Made by a program: the position numbers and the translations under genes. Below the pieces are notes generated by a model, which saw nothing but the letters and a program-made list of their open reading frames with translations, was not told the origin of the DNA and made no database searches. A stretch of DNA of 64,000 bases from Shinella fusca. Lineage in GTDB: Bacteria; Pseudomonadota; Alphaproteobacteria; Rhizobiales; Rhizobiaceae. Positions 27,849 through 38,276 of this stretch are shown piece by piece; the first letter of the stretch is position 1, and each line of letters starts with the position of its first letter. The DNA lies in assembly GCF_014203155.1 (NCBI RefSeq), contig NZ_JACHIK010000012.1:62001-126000 (forward strand). Direction: 5' to 3'.

Positions 27849-28550
27849 CTAGATCGCGCCGCGCACCCGCTCCCAGGCGTTCGTCAGGTGGCGGCCGAGA
27901 ACGGCCGCGAGCCTTTGCTGGTCGCGCGCTTCGAGCGCTTCGATCATCTCTTCGTGCTCGGCAACGGCCGCCGCCCACTTTTCCGGCCCCTCGTGGCCGA
28001 TGAAGCGGATTCGCTTGAGGCGTGTCTGCAGCATCGCATGGATTTCCGCGAGCGGCGCATTGCCCGACAGCGCGACGATCGCCGTGTGGATGTTCTGGTT
28101 GAGCTTGTAATATTCCAGACGGTCGCCCGCCTTGTAGTGCTGCACCATGCGGTCGTGCAGGCCGCGGATTTCGGCAATGCCCTCCTCGCTCGCAATCGCG
28201 CAGGCGAGCTTCGCGGCAAGCTCCTCCAGCGTGCCGAGAACCAGCAGCATGTCCTGCACGTCCTTGGCGCCGAAGCGCTTCACGACGGCGCCGCGGCTCG
28301 GCACCAGCTCGACGAGGCCTTCGCTCGCCAGATATTTGATGGCCTCGCGCAAGGGGGTGCGCGAGACGCCGAGCATCTGGCCGAGCTGGCCTTCGTTGAG
28401 GCGCGTTCCCGGCGACAGGTGCCCCTCGATGATCATGTCGCGCAGGCGGTTGACGAGCGTGTCGTGCAACGCCGTTCGACGGATCGGTCCCGGCAGAGCG
28501 CTTTCCGGCCGCTCCAAGCTTCTGCTCTCATCCATGGTCTTGATCTGCAT
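27849..28550 (-). CDS. GntR family (FCD) regulator of the divergent pdxA-like/tct operon
   Basis: A 233-residue FadR-type GntR regulator with a winged helix (LNEGQLGQMLGVSRTPLREAI) and an FCD domain. It is divergent from the catabolic operon starting at 28719. Two almost identical TGCATACAGAAT(A/G)CA elements lie in the 168-bp gap and bracket a strong promoter, which makes this protein the probable repressor. An AAGGAAG precedes the ATG at 28550; a start at 28535 is also possible. Confidence 0.87.
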   Translation of the reverse strand: MQIKTMDESRSLERPESALPGPIRRTALHDTLVNRLRDMIIEGHLSPGTRLNEGQLGQMLGVSRTPLREAIKYLASEGLVELVPSRGAVVKRFGAKDVQDMLLVLGTLEELAAKLACAIASEEGIAEIRGLHDRMVQHYKAGDRLEYYKLNQNIHTAIVALSGNAPLAEIHAMLQTRLKRIRFIGHEGPEKWAAAVAEHEEMIEALEARDQQRLAAVLGRHLTNAWERVRGAI

Positions 28551-28636
28551 CTTCCTTTTCGGCGCACGGCATCGGCCGTCGCCAGCGATTTGGCCAAAGC
28601 ATGAATAGGCCGGGCGGCGACGTCAACGGAAAATGC

Positions 28637-28651
28637 TGCATACAGAATACA
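28637..28651. promoter_or_regulatory. GntR operator O1
   Basis: TGCATACAGAATACA, 14 of 15 identical to O2 and exactly 52 bp (about five helical turns) upstream of it, ends six bases before the -35 box. Confidence 0.65.
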
Positions 28652-28657
28652 AAAGAC

Positions 28658-28686
28658 TTGATACAGTTTTCCGGATGCCTTATAAA
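28658..28686 (+). promoter_or_regulatory. Sigma-70-type promoter of the pdxA-like/tct operon
   Basis: TTGATA (-35, 28658-28663), a 17-bp spacer and TATAAA (-10, 28681-28686) give the closest match to the housekeeping consensus seen in the window. The predicted start point, around 28693, falls inside operator O2. Confidence 0.7.
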
Positions 28687-28687
28687 C

Positions 28688-28704
28688 CTGCATACAGAAT
28701 GCAG
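28688..28704. promoter_or_regulatory. GntR operator O2
   Basis: CTGCATACAGAATGCAG has perfect 6-bp arms (CTGCAT / ATGCAG) around a 5-bp centre. It lies two bases downstream of the -10 box and directly before AGGAGG, so bound repressor would cover the start of transcription. Confidence 0.7.
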
Positions 28705-28718
28705 AGGAGGAGTTTTCC

Positions 28719-29753
28719 ATGACCGAGAGTGCCAAGAGCGCCCGTCCCGTCATCGCGCTCGCCATGGGCGACCCGGCCGGCATCAGCCCCGAACTGACCG
28801 CGCGCATCATCGCGCTCGACGACGTCAAGGCCGCCGCGCATCTCGTGGTGATCGGCGACCGCCGCATTCTCGACGAAGGCGCGAAGGCCGCCGGCCTCAC
28901 GCTGGACCTGGAGCCGGCCACGCTCGAGACGTTCCAGCAGGCAAGCGGCGAGCGCCACGTCTTCATCGACCTCGGCCATCTCGACCCGGCGGATGTCACG
29001 CGCGGCGAGGCGACCCTTGCCGGCGGCACTTTCGCCACGACCAATTTCCGCACCGCCCTTCAGCTTGCCGACGAGGGCAAGGCCCAGGCGGTCTGCTTCA
29101 CGCCCTTCAACAAGAAGGCGATGCGCTATGCCTATCCCGGCTATGACGACGAGATCCGCTTCGTCGCCGACGTCATCGGCTTTTCCGGCAAGGTCCGCGA
29201 GTTCAACGTGCTGGAGAAGGTCTGGAATGCGCGGGTCACCTCGCACATCCCGCTGAAGGACGTGGCGGCGGCCCTTTCGGTCGAGGCGATCCTTGCCGAG
29301 ATCGAGCTGACGGCGACCTGCCTTCGCAATGCCGGCTACGACGACCCGAAGATCGCGGTCGCCGGCCTCAACCCGCATGCCGGCGACGGCGGTTCCTTCG
29401 GCATGGAGGAGATCGACATCATCGAGCCGGCCGTCGCGGCGGCGAAGGCGCGCGGCTTCAACGTCGAGGGCCCCTTCCCGGCCGACACCGTCTTCCTGCG
29501 CGCGCTGAAGGACGGCTTCCAGGCGGTCATGACCATGTATCACGACCAGGGCCAGATCGCGATGAAGCTCATGGGCTTCGACAAGGGCGTCACCATGATG
29601 GGCGGCCTGCCCTTCCCGCTCTGCACGCCGGCCCACGGCACGGCCTACGACATTGCCGGCAAGGGCATCGCCGATGTCGGCGCCAGCCGCGAGGCGCTGC
29701 TGCTCGCCGCCCGCATGGCGAAAAAGGCAGCCGCGCTCTCGACGGCGGCCTGA
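28719..29753 (+). CDS. PdxA/PdxA2-like 4-phospho-hydroxyacid dehydrogenase
   Basis: A 344-residue NAD-dependent dehydrogenase of the PdxA family with GDPAGISPELT near the N-terminus. The three expected metal-ligand histidines are present: VTSHIPLKD, LNPHAGDGG and YHDQGQ. The segment that reads GHTE in classical PdxA (4-hydroxythreonine-4-phosphate) is replaced here by YDDE, so vitamin B6 synthesis is unlikely. PdxA2-type enzymes oxidise 4-phospho-threonate or erythronate, and TphB-type ones oxidise a dihydrodiol. First gene of an operon with a carboxylate transporter, an isomerase and a kinase, so an acid-sugar phosphate substrate is the best inference. A strong AGGAGG lies eight bases upstream. 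Confidence 0.82.
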   Translation: MTESAKSARPVIALAMGDPAGISPELTARIIALDDVKAAAHLVVIGDRRILDEGAKAAGLTLDLEPATLETFQQASGERHVFIDLGHLDPADVTRGEATLAGGTFATTNFRTALQLADEGKAQAVCFTPFNKKAMRYAYPGYDDEIRFVADVIGFSGKVREFNVLEKVWNARVTSHIPLKDVAAALSVEAILAEIELTATCLRNAGYDDPKIAVAGLNPHAGDGGSFGMEEIDIIEPAVAAAKARGFNVEGPFPADTVFLRALKDGFQAVMTMYHDQGQIAMKLMGFDKGVTMMGGLPFPLCTPAHGTAYDIAGKGIADVGASREALLLAARMAKKAAALSTAA

Positions 29754-29822
29754 CCGGCCAAGATTTCAGCTATACCGGCATGGAGGAGGTTCGTGCCGGG
29801 ATCATCCCAACGGAGGAGCAAG

Positions 29823-30815
29823 ATGAAGAAGTCCCTTACCATCGCCTGCATCGCAGCGGCCGCGGCGAGCGTCGCCATGCCCGCCTTTGCCTTCGAGCCG
29901 GACCGTCCGGTCGAATTCGTCGTCACTGCCGGCCCCGGCGGCGGCACGGATATCTTCGCCCGCACCATCCAGGCGATCATCACCAAGTACGAGCTGATGA
30001 AGGCGCCGATCGTCGTGGTCAACAAGGGCAGCGCCGGCGGTGCGGAAGGCTTCGTCTATGCCGCGACCGCCAAGGGCGACGCCTACAAGCTGACCTTCGG
30101 CACGAACAATGCCTATCTCCTGCCGATCCGCGCCAAGGTGCCCTATACCGAGGCGGACCTCACGCCGGTGGCCGCCCTTGCCTCCGACGAGTTCGTGCTC
30201 TGGGTCAACGGCAAGTCGGACATCAAGACGGCCGCCGACTTCATCGCCAAGGCGAAGGCCGCCCCGGGCGAGCTGAAGGTCGCCGGCAGCCAGTCCAAGG
30301 ACGTCGACCAGATCCTCACCTCGATGATCAACGACGCGACGGGCGCCGATATCGGCTACGTTCCGTTCAAGAGCGGCGGCGAAGCGGCCGTGCAGCTTGC
30401 CGGCGACCACGTCGCCGCCAACGTGAACAATCCGAGCGAGAACCTCGGCCAGTGGCAGGCCGGCATGGTCAAGCCGGTCTGCGTCTTCAAGTCGGAACGG
30501 CTGAAGAGCGAGACGAAGGTTGCCGGCAACGAGGGCTGGAGCGATATCCCGACCTGCAAGGAATCCGGCATCGCCATCGACAACTACGCCATGCCGCGCA
30601 CCGTCTGGATGGCCGCGGGCGTCGACCCGGATGCCGTCGCCTTCTACACGGACGTGCTGAAGAAGGTCTCCGAGACGCCGGAATGGCAGAAATACCTCGC
30701 CGACACCTCGCAGTCCGGCACCTATATGAGCGGCGCGGAATTCTCCGACTTCATCAAGAAGGACGAGACGGCCGTTTCCGCCGTGCTCAAGCGTGAAGGC
30801 TGGCTCGCCAACTGA
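29823..30815 (+). CDS. tctC: TctC-type solute-binding protein (tripartite tricarboxylate transporter)
   Basis: A 330-residue periplasmic binding protein of the Bug/TctC family with a signal peptide cleaved near AFAFEP (about residue 23). The typical ligand loops are seen: TAGPGGGTDIFAR, and the NAYLL region. It captures a carboxylate for the TctAB permease encoded next. The start at 29823 follows GGAGG; upstream in-frame codons from 29793 are not needed. Two hairpins separate it from tctB, as often seen after highly expressed binding-protein genes. Confidence 0.9.
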   Translation: MKKSLTIACIAAAAASVAMPAFAFEPDRPVEFVVTAGPGGGTDIFARTIQAIITKYELMKAPIVVVNKGSAGGAEGFVYAATAKGDAYKLTFGTNNAYLLPIRAKVPYTEADLTPVAALASDEFVLWVNGKSDIKTAADFIAKAKAAPGELKVAGSQSKDVDQILTSMINDATGADIGYVPFKSGGEAAVQLAGDHVAANVNNPSENLGQWQAGMVKPVCVFKSERLKSETKVAGNEGWSDIPTCKESGIAIDNYAMPRTVWMAAGVDPDAVAFYTDVLKKVSETPEWQKYLADTSQSGTYMSGAEFSDFIKKDETAVSAVLKREGWLAN

Positions 30816-30881
30816 GCCCCGCTTTCATCCCGCCTCGTTCCGGGCGCAAGTCTGCCGCACACCTGTTGTGGCAGGCTCCAT

Positions 30882-30905
30882 GCGGGTGCCGCCTTCGGCG
30901 CCCGC
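30882..30905 (+). terminator. Intercistronic hairpin between tctC and tctB
   Basis: GCGGGTGCCG (30882-30891) pairs with CGGCGCCCGC (30896-30905), one G-U wobble, CCTT loop, followed by CTCTTT. A weaker hairpin lies just upstream at 30852-30874. The pair may stabilise tctC mRNA or partly terminate before tctBA. Confidence 0.5.
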
Positions 30906-30928
30906 CTCTTTCGGAAAGGGTTTGATCC

Positions 30929-31429
30929 ATGAGTGAGAACAGCGTGAACGGGCTTTCCCGCTTCGCCATGGAGGCGGCGGTCGCGCTCCTGACGGGCGCC
31001 TTCGGCATCGCCGTCGCCTATGGCTCGATCGAGGCCGATGCCGGCTGGACCGACATGGGGCCGGGTGCCGGCTACTTCCCCTTCTATATCGGCCTGCTGA
31101 TCACCTTCGGCAGCGCGGCGAACCTCGTCTATGCCTTCGTCAAGCACCGCGGCACGGGCGAGATCTTCGTCGACATGGCGCGCTTCAAGGTGGTGCTCGG
31201 CTTCCTGCTGCCGCTCGTCGCCTTCGCCGCGGTCTCCACCGTCCTCGGCCTTTACGTCGGCACGACGCTCTATATCGCCGGCACGATGATCTTCCAGAGC
31301 AAGTACAAGTGGTGGGCCGGCCTTGCGACGGGCATCGGCGTTGCCCTCTTCTTCTTCGTCATTTTCGAGATCGGCTTCAAGGTTCCGCTCCTGAAGGGCC
31401 CGGTCGAGGCGTTCTTCGGGATCTACTGA
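30929..31429 (+). CDS. tctB: TctB-type small membrane subunit
   Basis: A 166-residue protein with four hydrophobic helices and the DMGPGAGYFPFYIGLL motif characteristic of TctB. It forms the membrane complex with TctA. It lies between tctC and tctA; a GGAAAGGG region provides the ribosome binding site. Confidence 0.88.
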   Translation: MSENSVNGLSRFAMEAAVALLTGAFGIAVAYGSIEADAGWTDMGPGAGYFPFYIGLLITFGSAANLVYAFVKHRGTGEIFVDMARFKVVLGFLLPLVAFAAVSTVLGLYVGTTLYIAGTMIFQSKYKWWAGLATGIGVALFFFVIFEIGFKVPLLKGPVEAFFGIY

Positions 31430-31460
31430 TCCGGTCGGCGCCTGTCTTCGGAGGAAAGAC

Positions 31461-32999
31461 ATGGAAAATATCGGTCTCCTCATGGAAGGCTTCGGCCATA
31501 TCCTGAGCTTCAACCACATCCTGCTCATGATGCTCGGCGTCACGCTCGGCATCCTGGTGGGCGTGCTGCCGGGCCTCGGCGCGCCGAACGGCGTGTCGCT
31601 GCTCCTGCCGCTCACCTTCTCGATGGACCCGATCTCCGCCATCATCCTGCTCTCCTGCATGTACTGGGGCGCGCTCTTCGGCGGATCGACCACCTCCATC
31701 CTCTTCAATATCCCGGGCGAACCCTCCTCCGTCGCGACGACCTTCGACGGCTATCCGCTGGCGAGAAAGGGCGAGGCGAGCCGCGCTCTGACGCTCGCCT
31801 TCGTGTCGGCCGGCCTCGGCGCGCTGGCCGGCGTCGTGATGATCACGCTGCTTTCCGGCTGGGTCGCCAATTTCGCGCTGCGCTTCTCCTCGCCGGAATA
31901 TTTCGCCGTCTACTTCCTCGCCTTCGCCAGCTTCATCTCGATGGGCGCCCAGTCGCCGTTCAAGACGCTGGTGTCGATGATGGTGGGCTTCGCGCTCGCT
32001 TCCGTCGGCATGGACACCATTTCCGGCAACCTGCGCCTGACCTTCGACATTCCCGAGCTCATCAAGGGCGTCTCCTTCCTCGTCGCCGTCATGGGCCTCT
32101 TCGGCATCGGCGAACTGCTGCTGACGGCGGAAGAGGGCCTGCGCTTCGACGGGATCAAGGCGCGCGTCAGGCTCTCCGAGATCGGCCGTACCCTGATCGA
32201 GATGCCCCGCTACTGGTTCACCATCGGCCGCTCCATGCTGATCGGCATCTGGATGGGCATCACGCCGGCGGGCCCCACCGCCGCTTCCTTCATGAGCTAC
32301 GGCGTCGCCCGCCGCTCGGCCCGCGACAAGTCGCAGTTCGGCAAGGGCGATCCGCGCGGCATCGTCGCGCCGGAGACGGCCGACCATTCCGCCGGCACCT
32401 CCGCGCTCCTGCCCATGCTCGCGCTCGGCGTGCCGGGTTCAGCGACGGCGGCGGTCATGATGGGCGGGCTGATGATCTGGGGCCTTACCCCCGGCCCGAC
32501 GCTCTTCACCGATAGGCCGGATTTCGTCTGGGGCCTCATCGCCTCCATGTATCTCGGCAACATCGTCGCCGTGATCCTCGTCATCGCCACCGTGCCGCTC
32601 TATGCCTCGATCCTGCGCATTCCCTTCGCCATCATCGGGCCGGTCATCGTCGCCGTCATCTTCTCCGGCGCCTACCAGGTCGGCAATGCGGTGAGCGACA
32701 TGTGGCTCGTGCTCGTCTTCGGCCTGCTCGGATACGTCTTCAAGAAGCTCGACTATCCGCTCGCCCCGCTCGTGCTCGCCATGGTGCTCGGCGACAAGGC
32801 GGAGGATGCGTTCCGCCAGTCCATGCTGCTGTCCAACGGCAAACTCTCGGTCTTCTGGTCGAACGGGCTGGTAACGACGCTGATGCTGGTCGGCCTTGCG
32901 CTGCTCCTCTCCCCGCTCGTCTTCTGGCTCCTCGGCATCTCGCGCCGCCGCAGGCTGGGTGTCCCCAAGCCCCCGCAAGACGGAACGCCGGCGGCCTGA
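31461..32999 (+). CDS. tctA: TctA-type large membrane subunit
   Basis: A 512-residue, twelve-helix permease of the tripartite tricarboxylate transporter family, with the GVLPGLGAPNGVSLLLPL motif and its second-half counterpart GITPAGPTAASFMSYG, plus the STTSILFNIPGEP loop. It imports the substrate delivered by TctC using the ion gradient. GGAGGAAAGAC precedes the ATG. Confidence 0.92.
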   Translation: MENIGLLMEGFGHILSFNHILLMMLGVTLGILVGVLPGLGAPNGVSLLLPLTFSMDPISAIILLSCMYWGALFGGSTTSILFNIPGEPSSVATTFDGYPLARKGEASRALTLAFVSAGLGALAGVVMITLLSGWVANFALRFSSPEYFAVYFLAFASFISMGAQSPFKTLVSMMVGFALASVGMDTISGNLRLTFDIPELIKGVSFLVAVMGLFGIGELLLTAEEGLRFDGIKARVRLSEIGRTLIEMPRYWFTIGRSMLIGIWMGITPAGPTAASFMSYGVARRSARDKSQFGKGDPRGIVAPETADHSAGTSALLPMLALGVPGSATAAVMMGGLMIWGLTPGPTLFTDRPDFVWGLIASMYLGNIVAVILVIATVPLYASILRIPFAIIGPVIVAVIFSGAYQVGNAVSDMWLVLVFGLLGYVFKKLDYPLAPLVLAMVLGDKAEDAFRQSMLLSNGKLSVFWSNGLVTTLMLVGLALLLSPLVFWLLGISRRRRLGVPKPPQDGTPAA

Positions 33000-33036
33000 T
33001 CCGCCGGCTCCCCACCCCCCATTCCAGGAGTTCGCA

Positions 33037-33975
33037 ATGACCGCCTCTGCCCCCGCATGGACCCGCGAAACATGGCCGATCGCCGCCGCCATGATCCAGT
33101 ATCCGAACGTCCTTGCCGACGGCCGCTCGGTCCAGGAACAGTCCGTCGAGGAATGGGCCGCGACGCTCGACGACGTCGTCGATGCCGGCTTCACGGAGCT
33201 CGACCCGACGGATAGCTGGCTGCGGCTCGCCGACCTTTCCCCGGCGCGGCGCGACGATTTCATGGCGCTTGCCCGCTCGCTCGGGCTGACCGTCCCGGCG
33301 ATCTCGACCTCGCGCCGTAGCGTCATCGACGCCGTCCATGGCGATGCCTATCTCGCCTACTGCCACCGGGTCATCGATACGGCGAAGGCAATCGGCGCCG
33401 GCGCGGTCTCCTTCGGCCTCTTCGAGCCGCTGACGGAGGCGCAGAAGAAGGCGCTCTGGTTCTGGACGGTGGACGGTGCGAAGAACCCGGACGATCCCGC
33501 CGTCTGGCAGAAGGCCGTGGCGCGCATCCGCGAGCTCGGCCGCCACGCGGAGGAGCTCGGCATCGAGGTTTCGCTGGAAATGTACGAGGACACCTATCTC
33601 GGCACGGCCGACAGCAGCGTGCGCTTCGTCGAGGAGGTCGGCCTGCCGAATGTCGGCATCAACGCCGACCTCGGCAACCTCATCCGCCTGCACCGTCCCG
33701 TCGAGCACTGGCAGGCGATGATGGCGAAGGTCGCCCCCTTCACGAAATACTGGCACGTCAAGAATTATACGCGCGTCGAGGATCCGGGCACGGGCGCCAT
33801 CATCACCCATCCGGCCCCGCTGGAATCGGGGCTCATCAACTACCGGGCCGCCATCCGCACGGCGCTCGACCACGGCTTCAACAGCGCCTTCCTCTGCGAG
33901 CATTACGGCGGCGACGGCCTCACCGTTTCGGCCGCCAACCGCGATTACCTGCGGCGCATCCTGCCGCGCCGCTGA
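33037..33975 (+). CDS. Sugar phosphate isomerase/epimerase family protein (TIM barrel)
   Basis: A 312-residue AP-endonuclease-2-type TIM barrel with metal-ligand candidates in VSLEMYEDT (Glu), VGINADLGN (Asp), YWHVKNY (His) and FLCEHYGGD (Glu). Such proteins isomerise, epimerise or dehydrate sugars and inositols. Its position between tctA and the DhaKL-like kinase makes it part of the same catabolic pathway. The exact reaction cannot be stated. Start at 33037 after CAGGAGTTCGCA. Confidence 0.75.
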   Translation: MTASAPAWTRETWPIAAAMIQYPNVLADGRSVQEQSVEEWAATLDDVVDAGFTELDPTDSWLRLADLSPARRDDFMALARSLGLTVPAISTSRRSVIDAVHGDAYLAYCHRVIDTAKAIGAGAVSFGLFEPLTEAQKKALWFWTVDGAKNPDDPAVWQKAVARIRELGRHAEELGIEVSLEMYEDTYLGTADSSVRFVEEVGLPNVGINADLGNLIRLHRPVEHWQAMMAKVAPFTKYWHVKNYTRVEDPGTGAIITHPAPLESGLINYRAAIRTALDHGFNSAFLCEHYGGDGLTVSAANRDYLRRILPRR

Positions 33976-34007
33976 AACACGATCACAGAACGCGAGAGAC
34001 GATTACG

Positions 34008-35708
34008 ATGACCACCATCTTCGATGCTCCGGAGGACTTCGCGGCGACGGCCCTTGCCGGCTTTGCCGAACTCTACAGCCGCCATGTCCGCCTCGTGCGC
34101 GGCGGCGTGGTGCGCGCGACGGCCGTGCCGAAGGGCAAGGTCTCCGTCGTCGTCGGCGGCGGCTCCGGGCACTATCCGGCCTTCGCCGGCTATGTCGGCC
34201 CCGGCATGGCGGACGCGGCGGTGGCCGGCGACGTCTTCGCCTCACCCTCGACGGCGGCCGTCGCCCGCGTCTGCCGCCAGGCCCATCGCGGCGGCGGCAT
34301 CCTGCTCGGCTTCGGCAACTATGCCGGCGACGTGCTGAATTTCGGCGTCGCCGCCGAGCGGCTGCGCTCCGAGGGCATCGACGTGCGCATCGTCCCGGTC
34401 ACCGACGACGTGGCGAGCGCGCCGGCCGAGGCCCATGCCAAGCGCCGCGGCATCGCGGGCGACCTCGTCGTCTTCAAGATCGCCGGCGCGGCGGCCGAGG
34501 CCGGCCTTTCGCTCGACGAGGTCGAGCGCATCGCACGCCGCGCCAACGACCGCACGGTCTCCTTCGGCGTCGCCTTCGACGGCTGCACCCTGCCGGGTGC
34601 GGGCGGGCCGCTCTTTTCCGTGCCCGAGGGGCGCATGGCGCTCGGCCTCGGCATCCACGGCGAGCCGGGCATCAAGGAAGAAGCCATCGTTTCGGCGCGC
34701 GAGCTTGCCGGCCTCCTCACCGGCAAGCTCCTCGCCGAGCGCCCGGCCGGCGCCAGACGCGTCGCGGCCCTTCTCAACGGCCTCGGCTCCACGAAATACG
34801 AGGAACTCTTCGTCCTCTGGACCACGATCTCCCGGCTCCTGAAGGATGCGGGGCTGGAGATCGTGGCGCCCGAAGCCGGCGAATTCGTCACCAGCCTCGA
34901 CATGCAGGGCTGCTCGCTGACGCTGACCTGGCTCGACGGCGAACTCGAAACCTACTGGAAGGCGGCCTGCGACACGCCGGTGCTGAAGCGCGGCGGCGAG
35001 ATCCGCACCGTGCCGGCCACCGACACGATCGCGAACGAGGATGCGACGCCCGTTTTCGGCCCTGCCTCCGCCGGATCGAAGGAAGGCGCAGCCTGCATCG
35101 CCCGGCTCGTCGGCCATGTCGCCGATGCGCTCCGGGATGCGGAAGACGAACTCGGCCGCATCGACGCGCAGGCCGGCGACGGCGACCATGGCCAGGGCAT
35201 GCGCCGGGGCTCGGCCGCCGCACGCGATGCCATCGAATATGCGGTGACGGCCGGCGCAGGGGCCGCCAGCGCGCTCGCCATTGCGGGCGATGCCTGGGCG
35301 GATCGCGCAGGCGGCACCTCCGGCGCCATCTGGGGCCTATTGCTGCGCGCATGGAGCAACGCGCTCTCCGACGAGGACGGGATGGACGAAGCCGCCGTCG
35401 TCAGGGGCGCGCGCCTCGCGCTCGACGGTGTGACGCGCCTCGGCCGCGCCCGCGTCGGCGACAAGACGCTGGTGGACGCGCTGGTGCCCTTCGTGGAAAC
35501 GCTGGAAGCCGCCTTTGCGGCCGGCAAGCCGCTGAAAGCGGCCTGGGCCGACGCGGCGGAAGCGGCGCGGGCGGCGGCCGTCGCGACCGCCGGGCTCACG
35601 CCGAAGCTCGGCCGCGCCCGTCCGCTCGCCGAACGCAGCATCGGCCATCCGGATGCCGGCGCCGTCTCGCTGGCGCTGGTGGCAGGGGTGGTCGGCGCAT
35701 CGCTGTAA
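34008..35708 (+). CDS. Dihydroxyacetone kinase family protein (DhaK-DhaL fusion)
   Basis: A 566-residue ATP-dependent kinase. The N-terminal DhaK domain has GGGSGHYPAFAGYVGPGM and a GIHGEPG loop with the histidine that binds the carbonyl substrate covalently. The C-terminal DhaL domain has AGDGDHGQGM, with the aspartates that bind Mg-ATP. This single-chain form phosphorylates dihydroxyacetone or C4 ketoses such as erythrulose. In this operon, with a PdxA-like dehydrogenase, a ketose or keto-acid of an acid-sugar pathway is plausible. About 150 bp separate it from gnd. Confidence 0.88.
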   Translation: MTTIFDAPEDFAATALAGFAELYSRHVRLVRGGVVRATAVPKGKVSVVVGGGSGHYPAFAGYVGPGMADAAVAGDVFASPSTAAVARVCRQAHRGGGILLGFGNYAGDVLNFGVAAERLRSEGIDVRIVPVTDDVASAPAEAHAKRRGIAGDLVVFKIAGAAAEAGLSLDEVERIARRANDRTVSFGVAFDGCTLPGAGGPLFSVPEGRMALGLGIHGEPGIKEEAIVSARELAGLLTGKLLAERPAGARRVAALLNGLGSTKYEELFVLWTTISRLLKDAGLEIVAPEAGEFVTSLDMQGCSLTLTWLDGELETYWKAACDTPVLKRGGEIRTVPATDTIANEDATPVFGPASAGSKEGAACIARLVGHVADALRDAEDELGRIDAQAGDGDHGQGMRRGSAAARDAIEYAVTAGAGAASALAIAGDAWADRAGGTSGAIWGLLLRAWSNALSDEDGMDEAAVVRGARLALDGVTRLGRARVGDKTLVDALVPFVETLEAAFAAGKPLKAAWADAAEAARAAAVATAGLTPKLGRARPLAERSIGHPDAGAVSLALVAGVVGASL

Positions 35709-35859
35709 AGCCTTCAACCCCTTGAAGGAAAAAGAAGTGCCGAACTCTTCTTTAGGGTTGAAAGCGAGCGCCGGGCAGGCATGATTTCCGTTATCGCCGT
35801 CACGCCGGATCGATGATCCGTTCGCCGTGGACGTGCCTGGTCTCGGAAAGGACATTGCC

Positions 35860-36864
35860 ATGCAGATCGGAATGATGGGCTTGGGGCGCATGGGCGCCAA
35901 CATGGTGCGGCGCCTGATGGCGGACGGCCACGAATGCGTGGTCTACGACATCAATGCGGCCGCCGTCTCGGCCCTCGTTTCCGAAGGTGCGACCGGCGCG
36001 GCCTCCATGGAGGATTTCGTCGCCGGCCTCTCCAAGCCCGCCTGCGTCTGGCTGATGCTGCCGGCCGCGATCACCGGCCGGATCGCCGGGGAGGTCGCCG
36101 CGCTGATGCAGCCCGGCGACATCATCGTCGACGGCGGCAACTCCCATTACCAGGATGCCGTCGACATCGCCGGCAAGCTGGAGCCGAAAGGCATAAGCTT
36201 CGTCGACGTCGGCACGAGCGGCGGCGTGTGGGGCCGCGAGCGCGGCTATTGCCTGATGATCGGCGGTCCGGACGAGGCCGTGCGCCATCTCGACCCCATC
36301 TTCGCAACCCTCGCGCCGGGCGCCGACGCGGGCGCGACACCCGCGGCAAGCGAGGGCACGGCCCCCTACGGCTATCTCCATTGCGGGCCGAGCGGCGCCG
36401 GCCACTTCGTCAAGATGGTGCATAACGGCATCGAATACGGCGTGATGGCCGCCTATGCCGAGGGCATCAACATTCTGAAGGCCGCCAATGCCGGCAAGCG
36501 CAGGCGCGAGGCGGACGCGGAGACGAGCCCGCTCAAGGACCCGCAATACTACCAGTTCGATATCGACCTTGCCGCTGTCACCGAGGTCTGGCGGCACGGC
36601 AGCGTCATCGGCTCCTGGCTGCTCGACCTGACGGCGGGCGTGCTGAAGGACGATCCGGCGCTCGCCAATTTCGGCGGGCGCGTCTCGGATTCCGGCGAGG
36701 GCCGCTGGACGCTGAAGGCGGCGATCGACACGGGCGTTCCCGCCCCCGTGCTCTCCTCCGCGCTCTTCGACCGCTTCAGCTCGCAAGGCGAATCCGCCTT
36801 CGCCGACAAGCTCCTCTCCGCCATGCGCTTCGCCTTCGGCGGCCATGTCGAGAAGAAGAAATGA
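35860..36864 (+). CDS. gnd: 6-phosphogluconate dehydrogenase, decarboxylating (short GndA type)
   Basis: A 334-residue enzyme of the short, often NAD-preferring class. It has the nucleotide loop [14 protein letters not shown] (residues 5-18), [29 protein letters not shown], and [12 protein letters not shown] with the catalytic Lys and substrate-binding His-Asn. It oxidises 6-phosphogluconate to ribulose-5-phosphate. The start at 35860 (MQIGMMGLG) follows AAAGGACATTGCC. It overlaps the zwf frame and is translated just before it. A separate promoter in the 151-bp gap after the kinase gene is possible. Confidence 0.9.
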
Positions 36865-36878
36865 CGGGAGAGGGCACG

Positions 36879-38276
36879 ATGGACGGACGTTCCGACGGAC
36901 TGGTGCTGTTCGGCGCGACGGGAGACCTCGCGCACAAGAAGATTTTCCCCGCCCTCTACCGCATGGTGGAGCGCGGGCATCTCGATGAACCCGTCATCGG
37001 CATCGCCTACGATCCGTGGCCGCTCGAAAAGCTGGTGGAACGCGCCCGCGACGGCATCGCCAACGCCTTCGGATCAGTCGACGAGAGGGTCTTCGCCAAG
37101 CTCGCCTCGCTCCTGACCTATGTCAGCGGCGACTACCGCGACAAGGCGACCTTCGACAGGCTGAAGGCGGCGATCGGCAAGCGCCGGCACTGGCTCTTCT
37201 ATCTCGCCGTTCCGCCGAGCATGTTCGAGACCGTCGTCACGGGCCTGCAGCAGACGGGCCTTGCGACGGACGGGCGGCTGATGGTGGAAAAGCCCTTCGG
37301 ACGCGACCTGCAATCGGCCCAGGCGCTCAACGCCATCCTGCACGGGGCTTTCGCGGAGAAGGCGATCTTCCGCATCGACCACTACCTCGGCAAGGAGGCG
37401 GTGCAGAACCTCCTCTATTTCCGCTTCGCCAATTCCTTCCTGGAGCCGATGTGGAACCGCAACCACGTCGAGAGCGTCGAGATCACCATGGCCGAGGATT
37501 TCGGCGTGGAAGGCCGCGGCAAGTTCTACGACGAGGTCGGGTGCCTGCGCGACGTCATCCAGAACCACCTGCTCAACGCCCTCCTGCTGCTGGCCATGGA
37601 GCCGCCCGCCGGCCGCACGGCCGACGACCTGATCGACGAGAAGGTGCAGGTGCTGAAGGCGGTGCGCACGCTCCGCAGGCAGGATGTGGTGCGGGGCCAG
37701 TTCAAGGGCTATCTCGACGAGCCGGGCGTCCGGGAGAACTCGCCGGCCGAGACCTTCGCGGCCGTGCGCTTCCATGTCGATACCTGGCGGTGGGAAGGCG
37801 TTCCCTTCTACATCCGCGCCGGCAAGAACCTGCCGGTCCACGCGACGGAGATCGTCGTGCGCCTGAAGCGCCCGCCGCTCGACGTGTTCGACACGCTTCG
37901 CCCCGACGACGCCAATTACCTGCGCTTCCGCATCTCCCCACAGGTCGCCGTCGCGCTCGGCGCAAGGCGCAAGGCCGCAGGCGATGCCATGGTCGGCGAG
38001 CCCGTCGAATTGCTGGCCGTCGACGACGACACCGGCGACATGACGCCGTACGAGCGGCTGATCGGCGACGCGATGAACGGCAACGCACAGCTTTTCACCC
38101 GGCAGGACGCCAGCGAGATCGCCTGGCGCATCGTCGAGCCCGTGCTGGACGATCCGGCGCCCCCGCCCCTCTACGAGCCCGGCACCTGGGGACCGGCCGA
38201 AGCGATGAAGGGCTTCGGCCCGCCGCATGGCTGGCACGACATCTCCGCACCGGCTGCAAAGGCGGGCGGAACGTAG
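36879..38276 (+). CDS. zwf: Glucose-6-phosphate 1-dehydrogenase
   Basis: A 465-residue enzyme (somewhat shorter than the common 490) with the nucleotide-binding [22 protein letters not shown] and the diagnostic active-site RIDHYLGKE. It oxidises glucose-6-phosphate to the lactone. The ATG at 36879 is preferred because GGGAGAGG precedes it; an ATG at 36861 overlapping the gnd stop (ATGA) has only a weak ribosome site. The gnd-zwf pair lacks the usual pgl or edd partner in the window. Confidence 0.92.

Follow-up and report, generated by a model that had tools for sequence, protein, structure and literature searches.

Two described routes of sugar-acid catabolism stand nearest to the system considered here: an oxidative branch of D-apionate breakdown, which Carter et al. 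reportedly delineated in 2018 as comprising ApnO, OiaC, LerK, LerI and DerI, and the PdxA2-DUF1537 tetronate pathway, which Zhang et al. are said to have established in 2016. The DUF1537 proteins are presented as acid-sugar kinases in the published tetronate-pathway work. A further point of reference is the catabolism of tetritols, for which PMC12780249 gives bacterial erythritol and threitol routes running via erythrulose phosphates to D-erythrose-4-phosphate. Here we describe a locus of the alphaproteobacterium Shinella fusca, lying in a stretch of 64,000 nucleotides (contig NZ_JACHIK010000012.1, positions 62,001 to 126,000; hereafter the window), in which a PdxA-like dehydrogenase, the transporter components TctC, TctB and TctA, a xylose-isomerase-like TIM barrel and a DhaK-DhaL fusion kinase (DhaKL) are encoded in this order. 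We propose, with a probability of about 0.5, that this is a GntR-controlled operon that would oxidise a free five-carbon (C5) acid, decarboxylate the product to L-erythrulose, phosphorylate the latter and convey it to D-erythrose-4-phosphate. A preliminary description of the window had recognised the gene set and its order, an operon for acid-sugar catabolism that includes a carboxylate transporter, and DhaKL in place of a DUF1537 kinase. All of this is borne out: the six genes occupy 28719-35708 of the + strand and their products exceed the Pfam cut-offs, the TctC, TctB and TctA domains of a tripartite tricarboxylate transporter are found by Pfam within one operon, and the genome carries a separate PdxA beside a kinase of the DUF1537 type (SBD_N/NBD_C) on another contig.

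The likeness to the D-apionate branch is one of layout. In two loci (L152 and L154), a DhaK-DhaL fusion, a gene resembling triose-phosphate isomerase (TPI-like), an AP_endonuc_2 protein and a PF16896 gene lie side by side; we take the PF16896 gene to be ApnO and the adjoining AP_endonuc_2 protein to be OiaC, the 3-oxo-isoapionate decarboxylase. The L154 kinase scores 759 bits against NF011049 and that of L152 matches Dak1 and Dak2, while the AP_endonuc_2 protein comprises 271 residues in L154 and its reading frame in L152 contains a stop. The name ApnO finds support in the linkage of a PF16896 ApnO-like gene to ApnL (829 bits, against a cut-off of 750) and OiaX (780 bits, against 700) within Shinella fusca's own D-apiose-type cluster (contig C6, L119, 19.5 kb), which further encodes a sugar-binding protein, an ATP-binding cassette (ABC) ATPase and a dehydrogenase with weak similarity to inositol 2-dehydrogenase. 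Beside that cluster stands a second DhaKL kinase gene of this genome (NF011049, 746 bits). Like L152 and L154, with their PF16896-type dehydrogenase and AP_endonuc_2 barrel by a DhaK-DhaL fusion and a TPI-like gene, the window operon sets a dehydrogenase and a barrel by the kinase; however, a PdxA-like (elsewhere DenD-like) dehydrogenase stands in the place of ApnO, and the barrel is not the same protein, being longer (313 vs 271 amino acids). Uptake also differs, with Tct genes in the window operon, a major facilitator superfamily gene in L152 and ABC genes in the apiose-type cluster. With the PdxA2-DUF1537 pathway the operon shares a PdxA-family dehydrogenase for a hydroxy acid beside a kinase, but it has DhaKL, a lost PdxA phosphate anchor, an extra TIM barrel and probably erythrose-4-phosphate as its product. 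With erythritol catabolism of the eryR-tpiB-rpiB type, as given in PMC3599248, it would share the tetrulose-phosphate isomerases, whereas that route enters from the polyol by EryA and EryB and the window route would enter from the acid by oxidation and decarboxylation.

The gene set is widely conserved in a collection of 83 loci (L006-L088) comprising the best 80 of 492 TIM-barrel relatives from a bacterial genome scan, the TIM barrel being aligned with the solved structure 5tnv, together with three plasmid loci. With genes counted by tblastn (E<=1e-15) across at most ~10 kb on each side, 51 loci have all six with order and strand preserved; the PdxA-like gene is present in 64, DhaKL in 75, TctA in 62 and a GntR match in 65. 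Because of this shared order, the close spacing and the divergent GntR/FCD regulator, we regard the six genes as an operon and not a chance arrangement. It is found in many rhizobia, for example on pSymB of Sinorhizobium meliloti 1021 (L006), and its closest plasmid relatives are those of Shinella. The TIM barrel is uncommon, being present in 12/151 genomes of the family (E<=1e-40); among 289 genomes of the class (E<=0.001) it was found in the Shinella fusca genome only, along with one partial match of 27% identity elsewhere. In 13 of the 83 loci it is paired not with the PdxA-like protein but with a D-erythronate-dehydrogenase-like (DenD-like) short-chain dehydrogenase/reductase; two that were tested score 370 and 434 bits, above the D-erythronate dehydrogenase cut-off of 325, and no locus among the 83 has both dehydrogenases. 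Six have neither: L046 and L081 start near the end of a contig, two others (L074 and L078) are short, L022 is broken up, and the sixth is L072. In L022, from an Ochrobactrum sp., PdxA and TctC are unmatched and GntR, TctB and TctA are in pieces while the TIM barrel and DhaKL look whole, a picture of decay or assembly error; in L072 (2863-7725), the neighbours of the TIM barrel are a gene of the D-2-hydroxyacid dehydrogenase family and apparently separate DhaK and DhaL genes.

The PdxA-like protein (P0001) scores below the PdxA equivalog model TIGR00557 (260 vs a cut-off of 290.35 bits) and far below the D-threonate 4-phosphate dehydrogenase (PdxA2) model NF002891 (207 vs 583 bits), with the PdxA2 structures 2hi1 and 6e85 as its top PDB matches. 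It retains the three metal-binding histidines (His176, His220 and His275). A MAFFT alignment set P0001 and its 66 relatives (67 cluster rows) against 32 other PdxA rows, namely 30 from a phylum-wide search and two Shinella fusca paralogues, with entry L001, the window gene itself, left out of both sets. The metal histidines and the lysine are kept in every cluster row that covers those sites. In contrast, the positions of His136, Asn283 and Arg292, which we take to be the substrate phosphate-anchor residues of E. coli PdxA, are changed throughout: the first to Glu in 66/67 cluster rows (the remaining row being without that stretch), the second to Thr in 67/67 and the third to Leu or Ile in 67/67 (Glu145, Thr292 and Leu301 in P0001). 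All three residues are kept in 32/32 of the other rows. The latter include the paralogue beside the DUF1537-type kinase gene (L202); the other paralogue of this genome (L201) lies beside a KsgA-type gene (RrnaAD). A tree of 45 rows groups the 13 cluster rows chosen for it in a single clade (100/100), whose branch measures 2.35 changes per site. The earlier reading of the GHTE substrate segment as changed to YDDE holds insofar as YDDE sits in the GHTE region and the substrate site is changed; residue by residue, however, GHTE aligns with DEIR (residues 144-147), His136 facing Glu145, a pairing obtained by gapless alignment to E. coli PdxA and by MAFFT, the alignment to PdxA2 being less certain in that stretch. 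Given that the phosphate anchor is lost while the metal histidines are kept, the enzyme would oxidise an unphosphorylated hydroxy acid ahead of the kinase step. PdxA chemistry consists of oxidation beta to a carboxylate followed by loss of CO2; hence, a 3-oxo acid would be the product. There is a precedent within the family for a free substrate in TphB, the terephthalate cis-dihydrodiol dehydrogenase, which acts on an unphosphorylated carboxylate, though on an aromatic precursor with no sugar context; TphB (PDB 4aty) and the window protein share a weak whole-sequence match of 90.2 bits.

The TIM barrel (P0005) is 47% identical to 5tnv across a 300-residue stretch, an entry that bears the name AP endonuclease, family protein 2 only, without a functional name. 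Across P0005, 77 relatives and 5tnv, Glu182, Asp212 and His241 are conserved in 79/79 rows and Glu289 in 78/79, with one gap (numbering includes one extra residue before the ATG at 33037); by analogy with AP_endonuc_2 and D-psicose-epimerase-like barrels, these presumably form the metal tetrad. Orthology to OiaC was rejected, as the family hidden Markov model (HMM) gave no match at E<=1 to the OiaC candidate, a single intact AP_endonuc_2 sequence beside an ApnO-type gene. A comparison of the TIM family with that candidate by hhalign returned a probability of 17.9 and an E value of 0.0014, the two being 25% identical across 121 columns; the motifs that surround the four presumed metal ligands are similar. 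Any kinship between the window barrel and the OiaC candidate would thus be distant, and we regard the barrel as an analogous candidate decarboxylase. Its neighbourhood, with DhaKL and TPI-like genes close by as in the two ApnO clusters, makes a decarboxylase more likely than an isomerase or epimerase. In a metagenome-assembled proteobacterium (L068, 4783-6762), tandem TIM barrels (72% and 60% to P0005) lie between a DerI-like gene and DhaKL.

DhaKL proteins are a ketose-kinase family, in which DhaK binds ketoses through a His. The window kinase exceeds the NF011049 cut-off (747 vs 492 bits) and falls below the glycerone kinase equivalog TIGR02361 (374.8 vs 574.95 bits); we take the NF011049 subfamily to include erythrulose kinases. 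Its His217 (GIHGEPG) and DAQAGDGDHG align with like motifs of solved DhaK and DhaL. The proposed L-erythrulose kinase (LerK) activity draws support from linkage to TPI-like and DerI genes, both of which occur inside 10/83 loci and lie directly 3' of DhaKL in L038, L044 and L204. The DerI proteins of L078 and L044 score 249.5 and 247.9 bits against a D-erythrulose-4-phosphate isomerase cut-off of 240. At the level of genomes, DerI is over cut-off in 45/151 members of the family, distributed as 12/12 TIM-positive vs 33/139 TIM-negative (p = 1.5e-7), a value to be read down since these genomes are related and their rows not independent. In a second test, on 50 chosen genomes of the best-80 set, reached through their loci, and 14 controls, DerI is over cut-off in 44/50 vs 0/14. 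Among seven pair-bearing genomes searched with positions matched by hand (those of L071, L074 and L078 being outside the set), the DerI-like gene of the locus is the genome's only match in five (L038, L044, L054, L080 and L084) and not the sole match in L076 and L087. The Shinella fusca genome itself has a trio of DeoR, TPI-like and DerI genes near FGGY-kinase and GlpD-like (DAO) genes (L200), which resembles the eryR-tpiB-rpiB suboperon of erythritol loci in PMC3599248. Because this TIM barrel and kinase are accompanied in other loci by DenD-like or by TPI-like and DerI genes, and because DerI accompanies every TIM-positive genome of the family, the kinase most likely acts on a tetrulose, probably erythrulose, and the pathway probably ends in erythrose-4-phosphate and not triose phosphate.

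Drawing on gene content, conservation, residue losses, clade membership and the linkage and co-occurrence of the isomerases, we infer the substrate and each chemical step; as far as residue patterns and gene context go, the mechanism would probably run as follows. The sugar acid imported by TctCBA would have five carbons, a linear L-pentonate being most likely (such as L-xylonate, L-lyxonate, L-ribonate or L-arabinonate). While still free, it would be oxidised at its C3 hydroxyl by the PdxA-like enzyme, with NAD(P), to a 3-oxo (beta-keto) acid, which the TIM barrel, with its metal, would convert to L-erythrulose and CO2. DhaKL would then produce L-erythrulose-1-phosphate, and isomerases of the TpiB/EryH (LerI) and RpiB/EryI (DerI) types would take this to D-erythrose-4-phosphate and into the pentose phosphate pathway, their genes lying within the cluster itself in certain species and, in the Shinella fusca genome, in the erythritol-type locus. 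A LerI step implies the L form of erythrulose; if L-erythrulose is the product, it could arise by CO2 loss from a linear 3-oxo-L-pentonate or from 3-oxo-isoapionate. Acetobacteraceae-type clusters have a 3HCDH-type dehydrogenase gene nearby in 4/4 tested (L066, L067, L080 and L084) and an SMP-30 lactonase in 2/2 (L066 and L067); L-gulonate 3-dehydrogenase is of the 3HCDH type, and these neighbours are in keeping with aldonate chemistry at C3. Ascorbate breakdown yields L-lyxonate and L-xylonate according to PMC11066805, with related oxidation chemistry in PMC6225978; rhizobia may thus meet these acids from ascorbate, which we offer as a suggestion only. We would put at roughly even odds that a PdxA-family dehydrogenase acts here on a free C5 aldonate, possibly L-xylonate or L-lyxonate of plant ascorbate, and that the TIM family of 5tnv decarboxylates the product to L-erythrulose. 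Three proposals of the preliminary description do not sit well with these results. Phosphorylation of a C4-C5 acid itself is at odds with the vanished phosphate anchor and the ketose-kinase affinity of DhaKL, an ending in triose phosphate with linked and co-occurring enzymes that point to tetrulose phosphates and erythrose-4-phosphate, and an isomerase or epimerase role for the TIM barrel with its gene context.

Several observations weigh against the C5 route to erythrulose. The isomerase pair is not within reach in 73/83 loci (~10 kb either side), and eight lack DhaKL; the TPI-like protein of L044 exceeds the triose-phosphate isomerase cut-off itself (414 vs 293). ApnO, used as a comparison trait, is likewise enriched in the TIM-positive genomes (9/12 vs 27/139, p = 1.3e-4), and the DerI co-occurrence for that reason partly reflects general plant-sugar metabolism. 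Of the 50 locus genomes, six fall under the DerI cut-off (three at 230-238 bits and three at 148-150), a zone in which the model also matches common RpiB, with such weaker matches in 7/14 controls; two of the five sole-match genes (L080 and L084) are among those at 148-150 bits. The passage from a lost anchor to a free substrate is also a deduction. Finally, DenD, the alternative partner, is reported to oxidise D-erythronate to 2-oxo-tetronate, and hence uses a C4 acid at C2, which either fits a C4 route or calls for an extra isomerisation. In such a C4 route, L-threonate or D-erythronate would be oxidised at C3 by the PdxA-like enzyme to free 3-oxo-tetronate, from which the TIM barrel would form dihydroxyacetone and DhaKL dihydroxyacetone phosphate. 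The 13 loci with a DenD-like partner, including the two above the D-erythronate dehydrogenase cut-off, speak for it, as do the action of PdxA2 relatives on tetronate phosphates and the place of OtnI, an isomerase and itself a TIM barrel, after DenD or LtnD in accounts of known pathways. Yet it needs neither DerI nor a second TPI, when both are linked in ten loci and DerI is present in all 12 TIM-positive genomes; we consider it unlikely.

We find it rather improbable that the substrate is the branched C5 acid isoapionate (2-C-hydroxymethyl-tetronate), oxidised by the PdxA-like enzyme to 3-oxo-isoapionate, an intermediate of D-apionate catabolism, and decarboxylated by the TIM barrel to L-erythrulose. 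The similar downstream layout of the two ApnO-type clusters and the ApnL and OiaX genes of Shinella fusca's own apiose-type cluster would suit such a substrate; the distance of the TIM barrel from the OiaC candidate, by both the HMM and hhalign, does not, and we know of no natural source of isoapionate, which we also count against it. Least probable, and by our estimate very much so, is that phosphorylation comes first, with DhaKL acting on the acid and the PdxA-like enzyme oxidising the 4-phosphate toward triose phosphate, in the manner of a PdxA2 pathway that uses a different kinase. The proximity of a PdxA-family dehydrogenase to a kinase, as in PdxA2-DUF1537 pairs, and the PdxA2 structures as best PDB matches recommend this order, but the phosphate-anchor residues are lost throughout the cluster rows and the DhaK His, through which these kinases bind ketoses, is kept in the window kinase.

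The route from a linear L-pentonate to erythrose-4-phosphate would be under the control of the divergent regulator (Table 1). The site CTGCAT-N5-AT(A/G)CA(A/G), of 17 bases, occurs in two copies between the regulator and the pdxA-like gene, and TGCAT-N5-AT[AG]CA is present in 60/65 homologous GntR-PdxA intergenic regions (mean 0.03 and maximum 1 in 100 rounds of base shuffling), a count weakened by the shared ancestry of the 65 regions, one genome of which was entered twice, and for which base shuffling makes no correction. The repeated site is a likely operator. A sigma-70 promoter scan of 28540-36000 returned a single site at 35758 and none at the operon start, and a terminator scan found 6 sites vs 3.9 in shuffled sequence.

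Table 1. Features of the Shinella fusca operon and its upstream region (window coordinates)
Feature	Coordinates	Strand	Scores and proposed role
GntR/FCD transcription regulator	27849..28550	-	Divergent from operon; Pfam FCD 89.5, GntR 67.6 bits
Candidate operator copy 1, CTGCAT-N5-ATACAA	28636..28652		Direct repeat D2
Candidate operator copy 2, palindrome CTGCAT-N5-ATGCAG	28688..28704		Directly 5' of ribosome-binding site
PdxA-like dehydrogenase (P0001)	28719..29753	+	Pfam PdxA 287.9 bits (cut-off 27); proposed NAD(P)-dependent 3-dehydrogenase of a free sugar acid
TctC substrate-binding protein	29823..30815	+	Pfam TctC 97.2 bits (cut-off 27)
TctB small membrane subunit	30929..31429	+	Pfam TctB 64.9 bits (cut-off 29.1)
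TctA large membrane subunit	31461..32999	+	Pfam TctA 472.5 bits (cut-off 28.9)
Xylose-isomerase-like TIM barrel (P0005)	33037..33975	+	AP_endonuc_2 100.6 bits (cut-off 31.1); proposed metal-dependent 3-oxo-acid decarboxylase
DhaK-DhaL fusion kinase	34008..35708	+	Dak1 379.8 (cut-off 31.4), Dak2 158.8 (cut-off 27); proposed erythrulose kinase, LerK type

Other genes occur around the operon and its relatives. At its 3' end in the window (35860-38276), it is adjoined by gnd (6-phosphogluconate dehydrogenase) and zwf, which we set aside as pathway members given matches in 0/83 related loci. DXR-like genes are present in 10/83 loci (L050, L052, L054, L057, L059, L063, L064, L081, L085 and, weakly at 27%, L077); the single member tested, from L050, belongs to PF21135 (DRL_cat). 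They lie near diverged Tct genes, mostly on the opposite strand, which suggests a second imported acid, and L059 and L063 have a second PdxA-like gene or fragment as well.

No description of the six-gene set was found in the open-access literature searched, a weak negative as key pathway papers lie outside that literature. The present names of the PdxA-like and TIM-barrel clades say little or mislead: clade members in L007 and L008 are annotated as vitamin B6 biosynthesis. Were our proposal to hold, a function would be assigned both to this PdxA clade and to the TIM-barrel family of 5tnv, and oxidation, decarboxylation and an erythrulose kinase would constitute a module that can be reused with one dehydrogenase exchanged for another (PdxA-like, DenD-like and ApnO). 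The presence of the operon in Sinorhizobium meliloti 1021 makes the claim quickly testable. In biological terms, plant-associated soil bacteria probably possess a conserved gene set by which a sugar acid is brought via erythrulose into central metabolism, and thus probably a new route of sugar-acid catabolism assembled from known parts.

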